Below are positions 1,486 through 44,861 of a stretch of 64,000 nt of DNA, piece by piece (positions within the stretch are counted from its first letter, which is position 1; every line of letters begins with the position of its first letter). A model generated the notes under the pieces. That model was not told the origin of the DNA. It did no database searches and saw only the letters and a program-made list of their open reading frames with translations. Source of the stretch: Tianweitania aestuarii (lineage in GTDB: Bacteria; Pseudomonadota; Alphaproteobacteria; Rhizobiales; Rhizobiaceae); assembly GCF_018457165.1 (NCBI RefSeq), contig NZ_JAFMNX010000002.1:310001-374000 (forward strand). The letters are read 5' to 3'. The position numbers were made by a program, and so were the translations under genes.

Positions 1486-2736
1486 TCAACTGACGATCTC
1501 CGCTGTTTCGACGACGGCATGAAACAGCACGTCGCAGCCTGCGGACGCCCATTCTTTTGAAATTTCTTCCGCTTCGTTGTGGCTCAAGCCGTCGACGCAG
1601 GGGCAGAAGATCATGGCCGTCGGTGCGACGCGGTTGATCCAGCAAGCGTCGTGGCCAGCACCCGACACGATGTTGCGATGGGAGTAGCCGAGGCGGTCAG
1701 CGGCATCGCGCACGGCCTTGACGCAGGTCTCGTCAAAGGCGACCGGGTCGAAATGGCCGACCTGCTCGACCGCGGCGCTGATCTCCAGTGTTTCGCAGAT
1801 CGTTGCGATCCCGTCGCGGATGCGCGCATCCATCTCGTCCAGCACTTCCTTGTCGGGCGAGCGGATGTCGACCGTGAAGACGCATCTGCCGGCGATGATG
1901 TTGCGGGAATTCGGATAGACGTCCATATGGCCGATCGCGCCGACCGCGTCCGGCTGATAATCCATCGCGATCTCATGCACGAGCTCGGTGACGCGCGCCA
2001 TGCCGAGGCCGGCATTACGGCGCTTGGGCATCGGGGTCGAGCCTGTATGCGACTCCTTACCGGTCAGCGTGACCTGCAGCCATTTCAGCCCCTGGCCATG
2101 CGTGACGACGCCGATGTCAATCCCTTCATCCTCGAGGATAGGGCCCTGCTCGATATGAAGCTCGAAGAAGGCCTTCATCTTGCGGGCGCCGACCGGCTCC
2201 TCGCCTTTCCAGCCGATCCGCACGAGCTCATCGCCGAAGCGCTTCCCCTTGGCGTCGGTGCGGTCGTAAGCCCAATCTTGCTCCAGCATACCGGCAAAGA
2301 CGCCGGATGCGAGCATCGCAGGGACAAAGCGCGTGCCTTCCTCGTTGGTCCAGTTGGTGACCACGATCGGATGCTTCGTTCTGATGCCGAGATCATCGAG
2401 CGAGCGGATGATTTCGAGGCCGCCCAGCACGCCCAGCACGCCGTCATACTTGCCGCCGGTGGGCTGCGTATCGAGGTGGCTGCCGACATAAACCGGAAGC
2501 GCATTGGGGTCCGTTCCTTCGCGGCGAAAGAACATGGTGCCCATTTCATCGACGCCCATGGTGAGGCCTGCGGCTTCGCACCAGGACTGGAAGAGCTTGC
2601 GCCCTTCCCCGTCTTCATCGGTCAGCGTCTGACGATTGTTGCCGCCAGCGATGCCAGGCCCTATTTTGGCCATGTCCATCAGACTGTCCCAGAGCCGGTC
2701 GGAATTGATGCGCAGGTTCTCGCCGGGCGCGGCCAT
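1486..2736 (-). CDS. M20 family N-carbamoyl-beta-alanine amidohydrolase (beta-ureidopropionase type)
   Basis: Predicted 416-residue zinc-dependent amidohydrolase. The M20 metal ligands are visible: GSHLDTQPTGG (His87), GKYDGVLGV (Asp98), the NEEGTRF motif (Glu132/133) and HIEQGP near residue 195. This family (Zn-dependent hydrolase / hydantoinase-carbamoylase) splits N-carbamoyl amino acids, N-carbamoyl-beta-alanine or allantoate, releasing CO2 and ammonia. Placed between dihydropyrimidinase and a beta-alanine-type aminotransferase, and with preTA nearby, it is most likely the third step of reductive pyrimidine degradation (PydC role). That specificity is inferred from context; the sequence alone does not separate it from allantoate or L-carbamoylase relatives. 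Length matches the family (about 410-420). Confidence 0.9.
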   Translation of the reverse strand: MAAPGENLRINSDRLWDSLMDMAKIGPGIAGGNNRQTLTDEDGEGRKLFQSWCEAAGLTMGVDEMGTMFFRREGTDPNALPVYVGSHLDTQPTGGKYDGVLGVLGGLEIIRSLDDLGIRTKHPIVVTNWTNEEGTRFVPAMLASGVFAGMLEQDWAYDRTDAKGKRFGDELVRIGWKGEEPVGARKMKAFFELHIEQGPILEDEGIDIGVVTHGQGLKWLQVTLTGKESHTGSTPMPKRRNAGLGMARVTELVHEIAMDYQPDAVGAIGHMDVYPNSRNIIAGRCVFTVDIRSPDKEVLDEMDARIRDGIATICETLEISAAVEQVGHFDPVAFDETCVKAVRDAADRLGYSHRNIVSGAGHDACWINRVAPTAMIFCPCVDGLSHNEAEEISKEWASAGCDVLFHAVVETAEIVS

Positions 2737-2771
2737 TCATTGCTCCCCAATGCAACGTCGTTGCAGTTCAT

Positions 2772-2800
2772 CGCTGCGGCCACCGTTGGCAGCCGCAGCG
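2772..2800 (-). repeat. Intercistronic hairpin behind the aminotransferase gene
   Basis: A perfect 9-bp inverted repeat (CGCTGCGGC, 11-nt loop, GCCGCAGCG) lies 12 bp past the aminotransferase stop and before the hydrolase start. No T-run follows on the minus strand, so it is more likely an mRNA-stabilising or partial attenuator stem than a full terminator. Confidence 0.55.
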
Positions 2801-2812
2801 ATCATCCTCCTT

Positions 2813-4138
2813 TTAGTCCACCGCCCGCAACACGGCGCGGACGTGGTCGATCAGTTCGTCGATTTGCCCCTTCGAAATGATGAGCGGCGGCGAAAGCGCG
2901 ATGATGTCGCCGGTGGTGCGGATCAGCGCGCCACGCTCGAACGCCTTGATGAAGGCCGAGAAGGCACGCTTGGTCGGCTCGCCGGCAATCGGGTCCAGCT
3001 CGATTGCGCCGACAAGGCCGATGTTGCGGATATCGATCACATGCGGCTCATCCTTGAGCGAATGCAGCGCTTCTTCGAAATACGGCGCGATTTCGGGTCC
3101 GCGTGTGAGCAGCCCTTCTTCCTTGTAGGTCTCAAGCGTGGCCAGACCGGCGGCAGAGGCGAGCGGATTGCCCGAATAGGTGTAGCCGTGTGCGAATTCG
3201 ATGAGATGCTCCGGCCCGTTCATGAAGGCGTCGTGGATCTCGCTCGTCACGAACACGGCGCCCATCGGCACGACACCATTTGTGACGCCCTTGGCGGTAA
3301 TCATGATATCCGGCTTCACGCCGAAATAATCCACCGCAAACGGCGTGCCGAGGCGGCCAAACCCGGTGATGACCTCGTCGAAGATCAGCAGAATGCCGTG
3401 CTTGTCGCAGATCTGGCGCAGCTTCTGGAGATAGCCCTTCGGCGGAACCAGAACCCCTGTGGACCCGGCGACCGGCTCGACGATGACGGCAGCGATCGTC
3501 GACGCATCATGCAGCGTGACGATGCGTTCGAGCTCGTCGGCGAGTTCGGCGCCATGCTCGGGAACGCCCTTGGTGAAGCTGTTCTTGGCAGGCTGATGAG
3601 TGTGCGGCAGATGATCCACGCCGGTCAGCAGCGTGCCGAACATCTTGCGGTTGCCGACAATGCCGCCCACCGAAATGCCGCCGAAGTTGACGCCATGATA
3701 ACCGCGCTCGCGGCCGATCAGGCGGGTGCGCGAGCCCTGGCCCTTCACGCGCTGATAGGCTAGCGCGATCTTCAGCGCCGTTTCAACCGACTCGGATCCG
3801 GAATTGGTGAAGAAGACGTGGTTCAGCCCGTCCGGCGCCATATCCACAAGGCGGTTGGCGAATTCGAACGCGATCGGATGGCCCATCTGGAAGGCCGGCG
3901 CATAATCGAGCTCGGCAGCCTGATGCTGGATGGCTTCAACGATCTTCGGCCGGCAGTGACCGGCATTGACGCACCACAGACCCGCCGTGCCATCCAGGAT
4001 CTGGCGGCCATCGGCTGATGTGTAATGCATGTCCTTTGCAGCCACCAGCATGCGCGGCGACTGCTTGAATTGCCGGTTCGCCGTGAACGGCATCCAGAAA
4101 GCGGAAAGGTCGTTGGGGGCGTTAACCCGGTTCAGCAT
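2813..4138 (-). CDS. Class III omega-amino acid:pyruvate aminotransferase (beta-alanine type)
   Basis: A 441-residue PLP-dependent transaminase of fold type I, subgroup III. Visible features are the N-terminal WMPFTANRQFK stretch typical of beta-alanine:pyruvate and related aminotransferases, NSGSESVETALK (phosphate-binding region), ERGYHGVNFGG, the LLIFDEVITGFGR motif and the PLP lysine at about 283 in ITAKGVTNG. In the pathway it would convert beta-alanine or beta-aminoisobutyrate to malonate or methylmalonate semialdehyde with pyruvate as acceptor, the step after the N-carbamoyl hydrolase. It is the first gene of the minus-strand operon and is divergent from rutR, with a shared 230-bp promoter region. 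Substrate is inferred from sequence type and context; GABA or taurine use cannot be excluded. Confidence 0.92.
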   Translation of the reverse strand: MLNRVNAPNDLSAFWMPFTANRQFKQSPRMLVAAKDMHYTSADGRQILDGTAGLWCVNAGHCRPKIVEAIQHQAAELDYAPAFQMGHPIAFEFANRLVDMAPDGLNHVFFTNSGSESVETALKIALAYQRVKGQGSRTRLIGRERGYHGVNFGGISVGGIVGNRKMFGTLLTGVDHLPHTHQPAKNSFTKGVPEHGAELADELERIVTLHDASTIAAVIVEPVAGSTGVLVPPKGYLQKLRQICDKHGILLIFDEVITGFGRLGTPFAVDYFGVKPDIMITAKGVTNGVVPMGAVFVTSEIHDAFMNGPEHLIEFAHGYTYSGNPLASAAGLATLETYKEEGLLTRGPEIAPYFEEALHSLKDEPHVIDIRNIGLVGAIELDPIAGEPTKRAFSAFIKAFERGALIRTTGDIIALSPPLIISKGQIDELIDHVRAVLRAVD

Positions 4139-11992: not shown

Positions 11993-13030
11993 CTACTGCA
12001 CGCGAATGCGCGGGTTGAGATAGGCATAGCCGATGTCGGAGATGAGCTGCGTGAACAGCACAACGAAAACCGAGATCAGCGAACAGCCGAGAAGAAGGTC
12101 GATGTCGTTGTTGGCAGCACCCTCCACGAGCGCGTAGCCGAAGCCTTGGTAACGAAACATCGTTTCAACGATCACGACGCCCGTCAGCAGCCATGGAAAC
12201 TGCAGCATGATGACGGTGAACGGCGCGATCAGGGCATTGCGCAGCGCATGCTTGATGACCACGGAACTGAACGACAGGCCCTTTAGACGTGCGGTTCGGA
12301 TATATTGCTGCGTCATCACCTCCACCATGGAAGCGCGTGTCATGCGGGCGATATAGCCGATGCCGTAGATGGCCATGGTCATGACCGGCAGCGTGAAGTT
12401 GGAAAAGGTGATGCCTGTATTGGTCGCCGACGCAGCCGAGCCGTTGAGCCATCCCAGCCACGATGCAAAGATGACGGTGAAGATGACGCCCGACACATAT
12501 TCCGGCGTTGCTGTCGTGGTGATCGACGCCATCGACAGGGTGCGATCGGTCCGCGTTCCTTCGCGCATGCCGGCCAGAACGCCGATCAGCAGCGAGATCG
12601 GCACCATCACCGCCATAACCCAGAACATCAGAATGCCGGTGGCACCCAGCGCCGGAAACAGGCGCTCGGCAACCGACACGCGGAACTTGGTGGAACAGCC
12701 GAACTCACCCTGCAACAGGCCGGAATAAGCGGCTTCAGACGGTTCGTCGCAGAAGCGGAAGCGCGGCACGGCCTCGCCGGTCGCGGGGTCGATGTTCGGC
12801 TGCTTCGGCATCACGCCCAGCCATTGGCCGTAGCGCACAAAGAAGTTCTGGCGGTAGCCGTTGCGCGTCAGCCAGGATTCCAGCTGCTCCTCGGTCGCGC
12901 GCGACTCCGTTTGCGTGATCGCCAGTTTCTTGAGGTTGGGTTCAAGATTGACGAGAAAGAAGACAACCACAGTCAACGCAAACATGGTGAGCACCATGAC
13001 GCCCAGTCTGCGCAAGATGAAAGAAAACAT
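11993..13030 (-). CDS. Peptide-type ABC transporter permease, DppB-like
   Basis: A 345-residue inner-membrane permease. It opens with the DppB/OppB pattern (FILRRLGVMVLTMFALTVVVFF), has a longer than usual periplasmic loop of about 90 residues containing two cysteines (FRFCDEPSE...GEFGCSTKFR), and shows the coupling motif RTARLKGLSFSSVVIKHALRNALIAP followed by GVVIVETMFRYQGFGYALVEGA. It is separated from the binding-protein gene by 144 bp containing a hairpin, and from the DppC-like gene by 12 bp. It forms the transmembrane pore with that partner. Confidence 0.92.
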   Translation of the reverse strand: MFSFILRRLGVMVLTMFALTVVVFFLVNLEPNLKKLAITQTESRATEEQLESWLTRNGYRQNFFVRYGQWLGVMPKQPNIDPATGEAVPRFRFCDEPSEAAYSGLLQGEFGCSTKFRVSVAERLFPALGATGILMFWVMAVMVPISLLIGVLAGMREGTRTDRTLSMASITTTATPEYVSGVIFTVIFASWLGWLNGSAASATNTGITFSNFTLPVMTMAIYGIGYIARMTRASMVEVMTQQYIRTARLKGLSFSSVVIKHALRNALIAPFTVIMLQFPWLLTGVVIVETMFRYQGFGYALVEGAANNDIDLLLGCSLISVFVVLFTQLISDIGYAYLNPRIRVQ

Positions 13031-41087: not shown

Positions 41088-42854
41088 GTGTCTCTTTTCG
41101 ATATTTATCTTCGCGCTCTTTCCTATCTGGGCGCTGAAAAAAAGAAGGTCGCCTTGATCTGCGGCGCCAACGTGGTTCTGGCTCTGGTGACCATCGCCGA
41201 GCCGATCCTGTTCGGCCGGATCATCGACTCCATTTCCTCGTCCGGTGACCTGTTTACGAACATGGCGATGTGGGCGGGTCTTGGCCTGTTCAACATTATC
41301 GCCTTCGTGCTGGTAGCCCGTTCGGCCGACCGCCTGGCGCATAAGCGCCGCGTCGCCGTGTTGTCGGATGCGTTTGAAAAGACGATCACGATGCCGCTTT
41401 CGTGGCATCAGCAGCGTGGCACGTCCAACTCCCTGCACACCCTGCTCCGCGCCGTGGAAACGCTGTTTTCGCTGTGGCTGGAATTCATGCGCACCCATTT
41501 GGCAACGGCTGTTGCCCTCGTGCTGCTGGTTCCGACCGCGCTCAGCATGGACCTGAGGATGTCTGCTGTGCTGTTGGTACTCGGCATCGTTTACATCGCG
41601 ATCGGCCGCATGGTCATGAAGCGCACCAAGGACGGCCAGGCTGCCGTCGAGGGCCATTATCACCGCGTTTTCTCGCATGTGTCGGATGCCGTCAGCAACG
41701 TGGCCGTGCTGCAGAGCTTCAACCGCACCAGCACCGAAGCGCGTGAACTGCAGCGCCACACCGGCGATCTGATCCGCGCCCAGTATCCGGTTCTCGACTG
41801 GTGGGCACTGGCCAGCGGCCTCAACCGCATCGCCTCGACTCTGTCGATGATGATCGTGCTTTTGATCGGCGCCTGGATGGTGACCCGCGGCGAAATGCGC
41901 ATCGGCGACGTCGTTGCCTTCACCGGCTTCGCGACCCTGCTGATCGGCCGCCTCGACCAGGTCAACGCCTTCTTCAACCAGATCTTCGAAGCCCGCGCCA
42001 AGCTGGAAGAGTTCTATCGCCTCGAAGACGCCGTTGAAGCACGCCAGGAGCCGCTGGGCACTGTCGACCTGCCGAAGATCCGCGGCGACATCGTGTTCGA
42101 CAATGTGAGCTTCCGCTTCCCCGGCGCGAACCATGGTCTGGACGACGTGTCCTTCGAAGTGAAGGCTGGCCAGACCGTTGCCATCGTTGGCCCGACGGGT
42201 GCCGGCAAAACCACGCTGATCAACATGCTGCAGCGCGTTTATGATCCGTCGGAAGGCCGCGTGCTGATCGACGGCATCGACACCCGCGCCGTGACCCGCC
42301 GCTCGCTGCGTGCTTCGGTCGCCACCGTGTTCCAGGATGCGGGCATGCTCAACCGTTCGATCGAGGACAACATCCGCGTCGGCCGTGAGGATGCATCTTA
42401 TGAAGACATCCATGCCGCCGCTAAGGCCGCCGCTGCGCAGGAGTTCATCCTGAACAAGAGCGAAGGCTATGACACGGTTGCCGGCGAGCGCGGCTCACAG
42501 CTGTCGGGTGGTGAGCGCCAGCGTATCGCGATTGCCCGCGCCATCCTCAAGGATGCTCCGGTGCTCGTGCTCGATGAAGCGACCAGCGCGCTTGACGTGG
42601 AAACCGAAGAGCGTGTGAAGCAGGCGATCGACGATCTGCGTGCCAACCGCACGACCTTCATCATCGCCCACCGCCTGTCGACGGTTCGTGATGCCGATAT
42701 GGTTCTGTTCATGGATCAAGGTCGCATCGTGGAAAAGGGTGGCTTCGACGAGCTCGCCGCCACCAACGGCCGCTTCGCCAGCCTCCTGCGCGCCGGCGGC
42801 CTGCTGACCGACGACGACGTCCGCAAGATGGCTCGTCTGGCGGAAGCCGCCTAA
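41088..42854 (+). CDS. ndvA: Cyclic beta-1,2-glucan ABC exporter
   Basis: A 588-residue half-transporter (NdvA/ChvA/Cgt) that moves cyclic glucan to the periplasm as a homodimer. The first about 310 residues form the six-helix exporter domain; the ATPase domain has Walker A GPTGAGKTT near residue 369, signature LSGGERQRIAIARA and LVLDEATSALD. The N-terminus VSLFDIYLRALSYLGAE matches NdvA proteins. The start is GTG at 41088 with GGAG nine bases upstream; no suitable ATG is near. It lies 223 bp downstream of ndvB and is closed by a strong terminator. Confidence 0.95.
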   Translation: MSLFDIYLRALSYLGAEKKKVALICGANVVLALVTIAEPILFGRIIDSISSSGDLFTNMAMWAGLGLFNIIAFVLVARSADRLAHKRRVAVLSDAFEKTITMPLSWHQQRGTSNSLHTLLRAVETLFSLWLEFMRTHLATAVALVLLVPTALSMDLRMSAVLLVLGIVYIAIGRMVMKRTKDGQAAVEGHYHRVFSHVSDAVSNVAVLQSFNRTSTEARELQRHTGDLIRAQYPVLDWWALASGLNRIASTLSMMIVLLIGAWMVTRGEMRIGDVVAFTGFATLLIGRLDQVNAFFNQIFEARAKLEEFYRLEDAVEARQEPLGTVDLPKIRGDIVFDNVSFRFPGANHGLDDVSFEVKAGQTVAIVGPTGAGKTTLINMLQRVYDPSEGRVLIDGIDTRAVTRRSLRASVATVFQDAGMLNRSIEDNIRVGREDASYEDIHAAAKAAAAQEFILNKSEGYDTVAGERGSQLSGGERQRIAIARAILKDAPVLVLDEATSALDVETEERVKQAIDDLRANRTTFIIAHRLSTVRDADMVLFMDQGRIVEKGGFDELAATNGRFASLLRAGGLLTDDDVRKMARLAEAA

Positions 42855-42877: not shown

Positions 42878-42912
42878 AAAACGCCTGCCGGGGAAACCCG
42901 GCGGGCGTTTTT
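42878..42912 (+). terminator. Rho-independent terminator of ndvA
   Basis: AAAACGCCTGCCGGG and CCCGGCGGGCGTTTT form a 15-bp stem (one G-T wobble) around a GAAA tetraloop, followed by a T-run. It lies 24 bp past the ndvA stop. Confidence 0.92.
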
Positions 42913-43600
42913 CGTTTGTGCCTGTCTTCCAGATGGTCCGGCGGCTTGTCAGTCGAGGCTTTGCCGCAGGAAATGACGTCTGACGGGTTGAGCACAGTAC
43001 GGGTAGCCAGATGGTGTCAAAGATCCCAGGACGGCGCCGAGCCTGGTCTGTTTCTGCGCATGCAGTGACGCCTTCCCGCCCGGTGAAGGCTCGGGAAGCG
43101 GACGCAAGGTTCCGCGACTCTGATTAAAATCTATACGGCGGGGCGATCTCGCGTCCGTCGGTGCGCTCGCCGCGAACAAGTGGGCTGATCCGGGGTGGTC
43201 CCAACGCACCACGGCTGAAGGGTGCCTAAACCAACACTGACCTGCCCTCGGCCCGGGTTTAGGGAGGGACTGACTACCCTCCAAGCCAGGCTACCGTAGC
43301 CCAACCAACCCGGACACCGCCGCCCTCCTCTGATCCCCGGTGCGCACCAGAGTTCCCGACAAGAGCGATGAATGGAGGATAGAAGGGTTGGCTGCGGGCG
43401 TGGATAAGTTTCTGCTTGAAGGGACGGCGGCTGGGCGTTTGCCCGCGATTATATCCAACAACGTTCGTCGGCGTCGTAAGGCCGGCCCCACACAGGCGGA
43501 TGCGCGCCCTACTCACGATATGCGGCACTTATCGGTGTGACCGCCATACGCGAGACCAACAGGCACGCTCGAAGAGAAGCTTGTTTGAAGCGGATACGAC
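42913..43600. other. Unexplained ~690-bp intergenic region with many local inverted repeats
   Basis: No reading frame here resembles a known protein. Two frames on the minus strand (42949-43284 and 43274-43528) and one on the plus strand (43340-43540) are Pro/Arg/Ser-rich with no ribosome site and look accidental. A series of short perfect stems is visible: CCGAGCC/GGCTCGG (43037-43094), CCTAAACC/GGTTTAGG (43225-43263), GGAGGG/CCCTCC (43263-43282), GGCTACCGTAGCC (43289-43301) and GGTGCGCACC (43339-43348). This could be a structured RNA or a decayed element. I looked for RNase P RNA, tmRNA, SRP RNA and 6S RNA signatures and found none that hold. Confidence 0.4.
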
Positions 43601-43634
43601 AAGGCCCGCCGCATTCGGAGACGCGACGGGCCCT
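43601..43634 (-). terminator. Probable terminator of opgC-like gene
   Basis: AAGGCCCGCCGC and GCGACGGGCCCT pair at 10 of 12 positions around a 10-nt loop, starting 22 bp past the stop of the opgC-like gene. The T-run is weak, so efficiency is uncertain. Confidence 0.5.
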
Positions 43635-43655
43635 GTGATCGATCGAACCGAAAAC

Positions 43656-44861
43656 CTAGTCCTTGCGGCGGACGCGAACGGGCACCAGGGCGCCGTCGGC
43701 AATCGGCCTCGGCTTGGCTTCCTTGCGCAGCTTGATCTCGGCGGCCGCGCTCTTCTGCAGGCCCTTGTACCAGTCAAGATAAAAGGCCAGCGCGAACTGC
43801 AGGGCAATGCCGGTGCCGATCAGCAGCGTGTCCAGCATCAGGCTTTCGGGACGCGACAGCTTGATCACCTGAGCCACCATCGCCAAAAGCGTACCGGCGA
43901 TGAACACAGGCAGGGAATGACGGCCAAGGCTCGCAAGCGGATTGCTTTCCTTCAAGCGTGCCAGTTCCGACAGGCCTGGAATGGCAACCAGCAGATAAGC
44001 CAGCGACAACACATGCAGCAGGCGCGGCAGCGACAGGAAGGTCTTGTCGAAGCCCGTCAACACGGCCGGCAGGCCGAGCGAGGCATCCACGCCCCAAAGC
44101 GGCCAACGCACCCAAACAAAGGCGAGCACCAGATAAGCCGCAGCAGCCGCCATCAGGAACGGGTTGGCAACGATCTTGCCGCCGCGGCGCACATGCAGCA
44201 TGCCGCCCAGACCAATCGCAAACAGGAACTGCCACGACAGCGGGTTCAGGAACCACATGCCCGGCGTGGGATAATTCGGCGGAGCGACCTGGTAGATGCC
44301 GGCGAGCAGCCACAGCGTGCCCGATACGCCGACCATGAGACCGAGGCTGATCGTGCTCAACCACAGGAGCATGGGCAGCAACAGCATAACCGCCGCATAC
44401 ATGGACAGGATGTTGTTGTAGCCGAGCTGATGGCCAAGCGTTGCAAGCCCCAGCAGCGAGCGCGCCGGATCGTCGATCATCGGCTCGATGTTGATCTGCG
44501 CCAAAAGAGCGGGATTGGCGAGCCAGGTCGCGCCGAGCACGAAGATCGCGATCGTGGCCAGCGCCGTCATGATCTGCGTGACATACAGCACCCCTGCCCG
44601 CCGAAGCGCCTTCAGCGCCATCAGCAGGCGAACGCCGGGAACGAACTTGCCGCCATAGGCCAGGCCGATGGCGATGCCAGAGATCAGCACAAAGGCTTCC
44701 GCGGAATCGGAAAAGCCGAAGTTCTTGTGCGTCGCGTTCTCGTAGATCGTGCCTGGCACGTGGTTGACGAAAATCGAAAGAAGCGCGAGCGCGCGAAACA
44801 CGTCGATGCGCGTATCGCGGGCGGATTGAGATTTGAGGGGCAAGTGCGGATCAGCAGTCAT
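43656..44861 (-). CDS. opgC: OpgC family membrane protein, probable cyclic glucan succinyltransferase
   Basis: A 401-residue inner-membrane protein with about ten hydrophobic segments. The N-terminal RIDVFRALALLSIFVNHVPG and FSDSAEAFVLISGIAIGLAYG are the OpgC/acyltransferase-3-like signature; in E. coli OpgC succinylates osmoregulated periplasmic glucans, and the Brucella relative Cgm modifies cyclic beta-1,2-glucan. A cytoplasmic basic tail ends the protein (LRKEAKPRP...VRVRRKD). It lies beside ndvB and ndvA but on the opposite strand, so it is separately transcribed. The glucan substrate is inferred from the neighbourhood; the acyl group is inferred from the family. Confidence 0.9.
   Translation of the reverse strand: MTADPHLPLKSQSARDTRIDVFRALALLSIFVNHVPGTIYENATHKNFGFSDSAEAFVLISGIAIGLAYGGKFVPGVRLLMALKALRRAGVLYVTQIMTALATIAIFVLGATWLANPALLAQINIEPMIDDPARSLLGLATLGHQLGYNNILSMYAAVMLLLPMLLWLSTISLGLMVGVSGTLWLLAGIYQVAPPNYPTPGMWFLNPLSWQFLFAIGLGGMLHVRRGGKIVANPFLMAAAAAYLVLAFVWVRWPLWGVDASLGLPAVLTGFDKTFLSLPRLLHVLSLAYLLVAIPGLSELARLKESNPLASLGRHSLPVFIAGTLLAMVAQVIKLSRPESLMLDTLLIGTGIALQFALAFYLDWYKGLQKSAAAEIKLRKEAKPRPIADGALVPVRVRRKD

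Follow-up and report, generated by a model that had tools for sequence, protein, structure and literature searches.

A 690-bp block between ndvA and an opgC-like gene, in a 64,000-nucleotide stretch of Tianweitania aestuarii (contig NZ_JAFMNX010000002.1, positions 310,001 to 374,000; hereafter the window), almost certainly encodes on its minus strand a member of a structured RNA family of about 300 nt. The RNA is multicopy, is preceded in most copies by a common promoter-like block and is genetically linked, in the host and in other Rhizobiaceae, to a small protein in which four cysteines are invariant. The newness lies in the RNA class and its protein partner, which match no described family by the tests made, and not in the mechanism, for which no novelty is claimed. 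The explanation favored here, with a probability of roughly 0.45, is a regulatory RNA–protein mechanism in which the protein would bind the RNA, a leader copy would make its expression self-regulated and solo copies would serve as its partners or decoys. Large structured RNA classes are rare in bacteria and several of them have led to biology that was not foreseen; a gap of 690 bp that looks “empty” can conceal a system present in 18 or more of the genera sampled.

The case for a real RNA comes from the comparison of homologues, as local stems are insufficient by themselves. The initial annotation had proposed a new structured RNA because of the inverted repeats packed in the block, and all five of these proved exact on re-checking (CCGAGCC/GGCTCGG at 43037/43088, CCTAAACC/GGTTTAGG at 43225/43256, GGAGGG/CCCTCC at 43263/43277, GGCTAC/GTAGCC within 43289–43301 and the palindrome GGTGCGCACC at 43339–43348). 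Only the last three belong to the conserved fold, and the folding energy of the single sequence (310 nt compared with shuffles) is not beyond chance on either strand (z of -0.72 for the minus and -1.18 for the plus strand). Across 18 Tianweitania copies, a structure of 94 pairs is 97.0% paired compared to 39–51% when the partners are slid by 1–3 columns, and it displays 75 double-sided changes against 29.5 in shuffles. A covariance model called R1 (121 nt, trained on Tianweitania copies only and giving rough E-values) was used to align 68 copies (56 distinct), in which the R1 pairs are 96.0% paired versus 36–47% when slid, with 218 double-sided changes versus 70 in shuffles and such changes in 24 of the 40 pairs. 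Since this alignment was fitted to R1, its figures are biased toward structure; the slid controls and an unfitted alignment (A8) agree with the result. Helices 1 and 2 of the first hairpin are 98.5 and 93.0% paired in the 68 copies. The helix that closes the multibranched domain is nearly invariant in Tianweitania and is thus weakly tested by covariation. A plus-strand RNA was ruled out by its weaker consensus energy (-83 kcal/mol, versus -125 kcal/mol for the minus strand) and by its fewer standard pairs, which, as judged with the G-U cells (n = 206), amount to 85.8% (1442 of 1680 cells) on the plus and 97.0% on the minus strand.

Other identities for the block were also considered. No reading frame is open across the copies, their indels are not multiples of three and the longest stop-free stretch (about 109 possible) drops in some copies to 67 aa in the RNA sense or 38 aa on the other strand, which excludes a protein-coding gene and bears out the earlier remark that the block holds no credible one. 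Searches of Rfam 15 (tmRNA, RNase P, 6S, introns, OLE, ROOL, GOLLD, HEARO, ar sRNAs and others) with the window element and 18 other loci from several genera gave no match at gathering score within the RNA region; group I and group II introns were discarded as no intron core was matched, and the search for tRNA and tmRNA with ARAGORN was negative. The proposal of a new structured RNA that matches no known one has accordingly held, with strong covariation and many homologues, and nothing that was found marks it as a decayed transposon or protein gene. Its extent was revised: the conserved RNA runs from about 43369 to 43072 and does not fill the 690 bp.

The block is a dispersed, repeated element, a point that the initial annotation had suggested checking. 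A BLAST search of the host genome with the block revealed ten copies of a core some 340 bp long, the remaining ones sharing 74–78% identity with the window copy, while T. populi carries eight full copies and one fragment, and T. sediminis only part of one copy. R1 matches were obtained in 34 of 396 Rhizobiaceae genomes, representing 18 of 109 genera, with E-values outside Tianweitania down to 5e-13 and 3–24 copies per genome in the 14 genomes counted. The copies align end to end, their flanks on both sides are unrelated or variable and no terminal inverted repeats can be seen where the aligned copies end. The host and T. populi have three copies in synteny, the leader copy among them, yet the sequences group by species (support is modest to good, and the window copy stands apart from the main cluster of the host), a pattern suggestive of concerted evolution or turnover. 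At the site of the window copy, the ndvA–opgC gaps of T. populi and T. sediminis hold no RNA copy, and these gaps gave no clean empty site to align in a check for target duplication. In the T. populi gap (L095, about 2700–3300) an unrelated apparent protein gene stands in place of the host RNA copy, so the site is variable; separately, a terC RNA (RF03067, 54.1 bits) adjoins one T. populi copy (L012:2259–2316).

This distribution brings in the main rival explanation, a selfish repeat resembling a short interspersed nuclear element, that is, an RNA gene with its own promoter that is copied by an unspecified enzyme, the protein-linked copy being ancestral and the solo copies its descendants, now without function. 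Such a repeat would account for the dispersed near-identical copies of some genomes (24 in G133), for the contig breaks at copies in G237, for the clustering by species and for the absence of the window copy from the same site in two sister species. It is nevertheless considered rather unlikely because divergent copies preserve the fold, the promoter block and the palindromic loop through compensatory change, three sites are common to two species, no terminal inverted repeats were seen in the copy alignments, and the matches to plasmids, phages or viral contigs did not exceed chance or were due to a neighboring repetitive extragenic palindromic (REP) element. A phage or plasmid origin was rejected on this last ground, the sequence matches of one search covering one query end only, outside the RNA. 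A wider spread outside Tianweitania indicated by an invariant 18-mer was also discarded, as its matches in other taxa and in one viral contig stop short of the fold. In G237, several contigs (C4, C16 and C34, first 200 bases) end within RNA copies, as would be the case if short-read assembly broke off at near-identical copies. Additionally, a short rhizobial palindromic repeat, CTTCGTCATCCTCGGGCTTGACCCGAGGATCCATG, often lies about 50 nt upstream of the promoter block (flanks L006, L013, L016, L018 and L019), and other REP-like repeats stand after copies in G129.

Nearly all of 83 distinct copies share an upstream consensus composed of (T)TTATCCMC, 16–18 nt and CATAAT, CATACT or TATCCT, with the RNA following 6–12 nt later. 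Across the three Tianweitania genomes, exact matches to the form of this pattern found in the genus number 13, always at RNA copies (13/13), and the reversed pattern, taken as a control, has no match in them. The -10-like hexamer is ordinary whereas the -35-like sequence is not the standard sigma-70 hexamer, so that a different sigma factor or an activator may be involved there. The window RNA would then be a minus-strand transcript with a promoter of its own.

In several genomes an RNA copy directly precedes an open reading frame (ORF) of about 90–150 codons with the four invariant cysteines; in the host genome (G000) the gene lies at C5:226233–226601, downstream of the RNA copy at C5:225872–226219. 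A profile search found the protein in 44 of the 396 Rhizobiaceae genomes. Among 30 protein loci that were fetched, part of which had also been used to discover the protein, R1 occurs upstream and on the same strand in 29 (25 at E < 0.006 and four at 0.014–0.07), the exception being the G180 locus; loci missed by the RNA scan (G009, G184, G207, G238, G262, G289 and G315) also have the upstream leader. Protein and RNA co-occur in 26 of the 34 RNA-positive genomes (Fisher p 3e-22, for genomes that are not phylogenetically independent). The ORF fits a coding gene by its ratios of nonsynonymous to synonymous substitution (about 0.13 and 0.22 in two pairs, 0.5–0.65 in three others). The protein, perhaps zinc-stabilized, has no match above noise in Pfam, NCBIfam, PHROG, PADLOC or PDB, and none to CsrA, to the toxin families ToxN/CptN/TenpN or to defense families; no fixed gene neighborhood of the leader locus was apparent by eye. 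In line with the favored mechanism, T. sediminis gave no match to the protein and keeps only a single, partial RNA copy. In two loci with disrupted protein genes (L015:1873–2139 and L103:1806–2042) the frame is lost near the first motif cysteine and the RNA leader is intact.

The nearly universal leader position would also be expected if the RNA were a cis-acting leader only, either a riboswitch or a protein-sensing element of the cysteine-protein gene, with the solo copies as by-products, and the position holds for RNAs with few or no detected solos (G009, G063, G238 and G315). This is improbable given that the solos retain the promoter block and the fold and often possess a 3' module of their own, a covarying hairpin. 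A pair of the type III toxin–antitoxin kind, in which the RNA would neutralize the small protein and additional copies would add protection, agrees with the RNA gene placed directly before a small protein gene and with the genomes where the protein is lost or frameshifted and RNA copies remain. On the other hand, no toxin was matched in PADLOC, Pfam or NCBIfam, the RNA is one large multibranched fold devoid of short tandem repeats, and the system is chromosomal and was not found on plasmids or phages, all of which leaves this pair with even poorer odds than the leader.

Computation establishes the fold and its strand, the multicopy distribution, the common promoter-like block and the leader linkage; transcription, binding, dimerization and regulation are inferred. 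Under the regulatory RNA–protein mechanism, binding of the four-cysteine protein to the RNA is argued from the combination of leader position, many solo copies behind the same promoter block and genome co-occurrence. The copy that precedes the protein gene would make expression self-regulated, and the solo copies would be trans-acting small RNA (sRNA) partners or decoys that set the level of free protein, in the manner of CsrB toward CsrA. A further element is the apical loop on the first hairpin: most copies have UGCGCA there, others have UCAUGA, UCCGGA or UCGCGA, and one divergent locus has GUGCAC, the exceptions to palindromy being one copy with UACGCA and one that keeps only CCGG. As five distinct hexamers are all self-complementary, loop–loop pairing between two molecules is argued, suggesting that RNAs of the same class form kissing dimers and hence a two-fold scaffold. 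Alternatively, the palindromic loop could be read as a two-fold symmetric DNA site. The UGCGCA and UCAUGA loop classes can coexist in one genome (L102, L118, L132 and L148 versus L149, L150 and L187 in G129; C2 versus C46 in G076), in which case dimers would stay within a class.

Most RNA copies are not followed by the four-cysteine ORF, and many of these solos have a boxA-like GTTCTTTGAMAA as well as a hairpin (GCCAGA-stem-tetraloop-stem-GGCGTGGC) that shows compensatory changes; this tail hairpin is also present in a few leader loci. The boxA-like motif resembles that of the rRNA leader of a Phyllobacterium, which has TTCTTTGAAAA; no 16S was found in the host assembly, whose own leader would be the reference for a boxA. 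The succession of GTTCTTTGAMAA and a conserved hairpin in many solos, similar to an rRNA leader, raises the idea of an rRNA-like antiterminated long noncoding RNA or a Nus-factor-binding RNA with boxA as its functional core. This is the least probable of the alternatives, for many copies lack the motif, as do leader copies, and its position at the 3' end would leave little RNA for antitermination to serve. In two loci (L115:1739–1764 and L200:1657–1680) the tail hairpin changes jointly from A...G to G...A in its internal loop, a sheared G-A-like covariation that is kink-turn-like.

Several observations weigh against the regulatory mechanism, which is drawn from sequence comparisons: the protein is poorly conserved outside the cysteine motif; the T. 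populi protein gene is frameshifted, yet eight RNA copies are kept; and eight RNA-positive genomes, one of them with ten copies, have no protein match. An order-wide sample of 397 genomes, scanned with stricter filters than the family, gave R1 matches in two genomes, both in Rhizobiaceae and none outside it. A broader proposal is put forward only tentatively: that a new ornate RNA class, with class-specific kissing dimers and up to 24 dedicated genes in a genome besides the leader of the protein gene, would be bound by its cognate four-cysteine protein as a global regulatory or structural system of Rhizobiaceae, absent from the databases searched. The RNA is notable for its multiple copies, signs of concerted evolution, a dedicated promoter-like block and loops that change and remain palindromic, and, being tied genetically to a protein family without annotation, it is open to direct biochemical testing at once.

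The two terminators that the initial annotation had placed at the borders of the block were both found (Table 1). The ndvA terminator is symmetric and, when read in the minus direction, could also terminate the RNA; the window RNA is possibly longer than about 300 nt. Elsewhere in the window (12238–12416, plus strand) Rfam matched Cis52_sRNA (RF02647) with 56.8 bits, barely above gathering score.

Table 1. Features of the RNA copy and its surroundings, in window coordinates.
Feature	Position	Strand	Remarks
Conserved structured RNA	43072-43369	-	5' end at about 43369, inferred from the -10-like hexamer; conserved fold to about 43072
First hairpin	43320-43368	-	43368-43361 with 43327-43320; 43355-43346 with 43341-43332
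Apical loop TGCGCA	43341-43346		Self-complementary, center of palindrome GGTGCGCACC (43339-43348); proposed kissing loop
Three-way junction	43253-43313	-	Stem 43313-43307/43259-43253; hairpins 43306-43284 and 43282-43263; helices 3-5 in the 68-copy alignment
Variable central domain	43169-43252	-	Helices 7-10 of the Tianweitania fold
Closing helix of multibranched domain	43159-43319	-	43319-43314 with 43164-43159; helix 3 of the Tianweitania fold
Long hairpin	43099-43157	-	43157-43148/43108-43099 and 43144-43137/43118-43111; helices 11 and 12
3' hairpin CTTCCCG...CGGGAAG	43072-43098	-	Helix 13
Promoter-like block TATCCACG-N17-TATCCT	43376-43406	-	-35-like and -10-like; common to nearly all copies
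boxA-like TCTTTGACA	43016-43024	-	Downstream of the fold; many other solos have the fuller GTTCTTTGAMAA
ndvA	41088-42854	+	Gene on one side of the block
ndvA terminator	42878-42911		Symmetric; present
opgC-side hairpin	about 43599-43636		Present
opgC-like gene	43656-44861	-	Gene on the other side of the block

No description of this RNA or its linked protein was found in the literature, of which coverage was incomplete and subscription papers were largely outside it. Among known systems, the proposed logic is analogous to that of CsrA/RsmE with CsrB/RsmZ, in which a small protein binds RNA, its leader is autoregulated and several sRNA copies titrate it; however, the protein is not CsrA, and CsrB/RsmZ consist of repeated GGA hairpins whereas a single large multibranched fold is common here to leader and sRNAs. 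In ToxIN-like type III systems, too, a small protein gene is immediately preceded by an RNA gene, and the present system differs by having no tandem-repeat antitoxin, no toxin family match and many dispersed solo RNAs. Rhizobial REP- and RIME-type repeats are also dispersed, intergenic and multicopy, but this RNA, of about 300 nt, has a multibranched covarying fold, a promoter block and a protein linkage, and short REP palindromes adjoin it as separate elements. Of the large structured RNAs, OLE has protein partners. OLE, ROOL and GOLLD are noncoding RNAs that form homo-oligomers (PMC12286853); the palindromic loops suggest dimers of the present RNA as well, which, unlike them, is about 300 nt long, multicopy, confined to Rhizobiaceae as sampled and without a match in Rfam. 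Finally, the dimer-initiation loop of the human immunodeficiency virus type is a self-complementary hexanucleotide borne on a hairpin (PMC4588261), and GUGCAC is among the loops found here, a likeness that would hold for the loop only and implies no relation.
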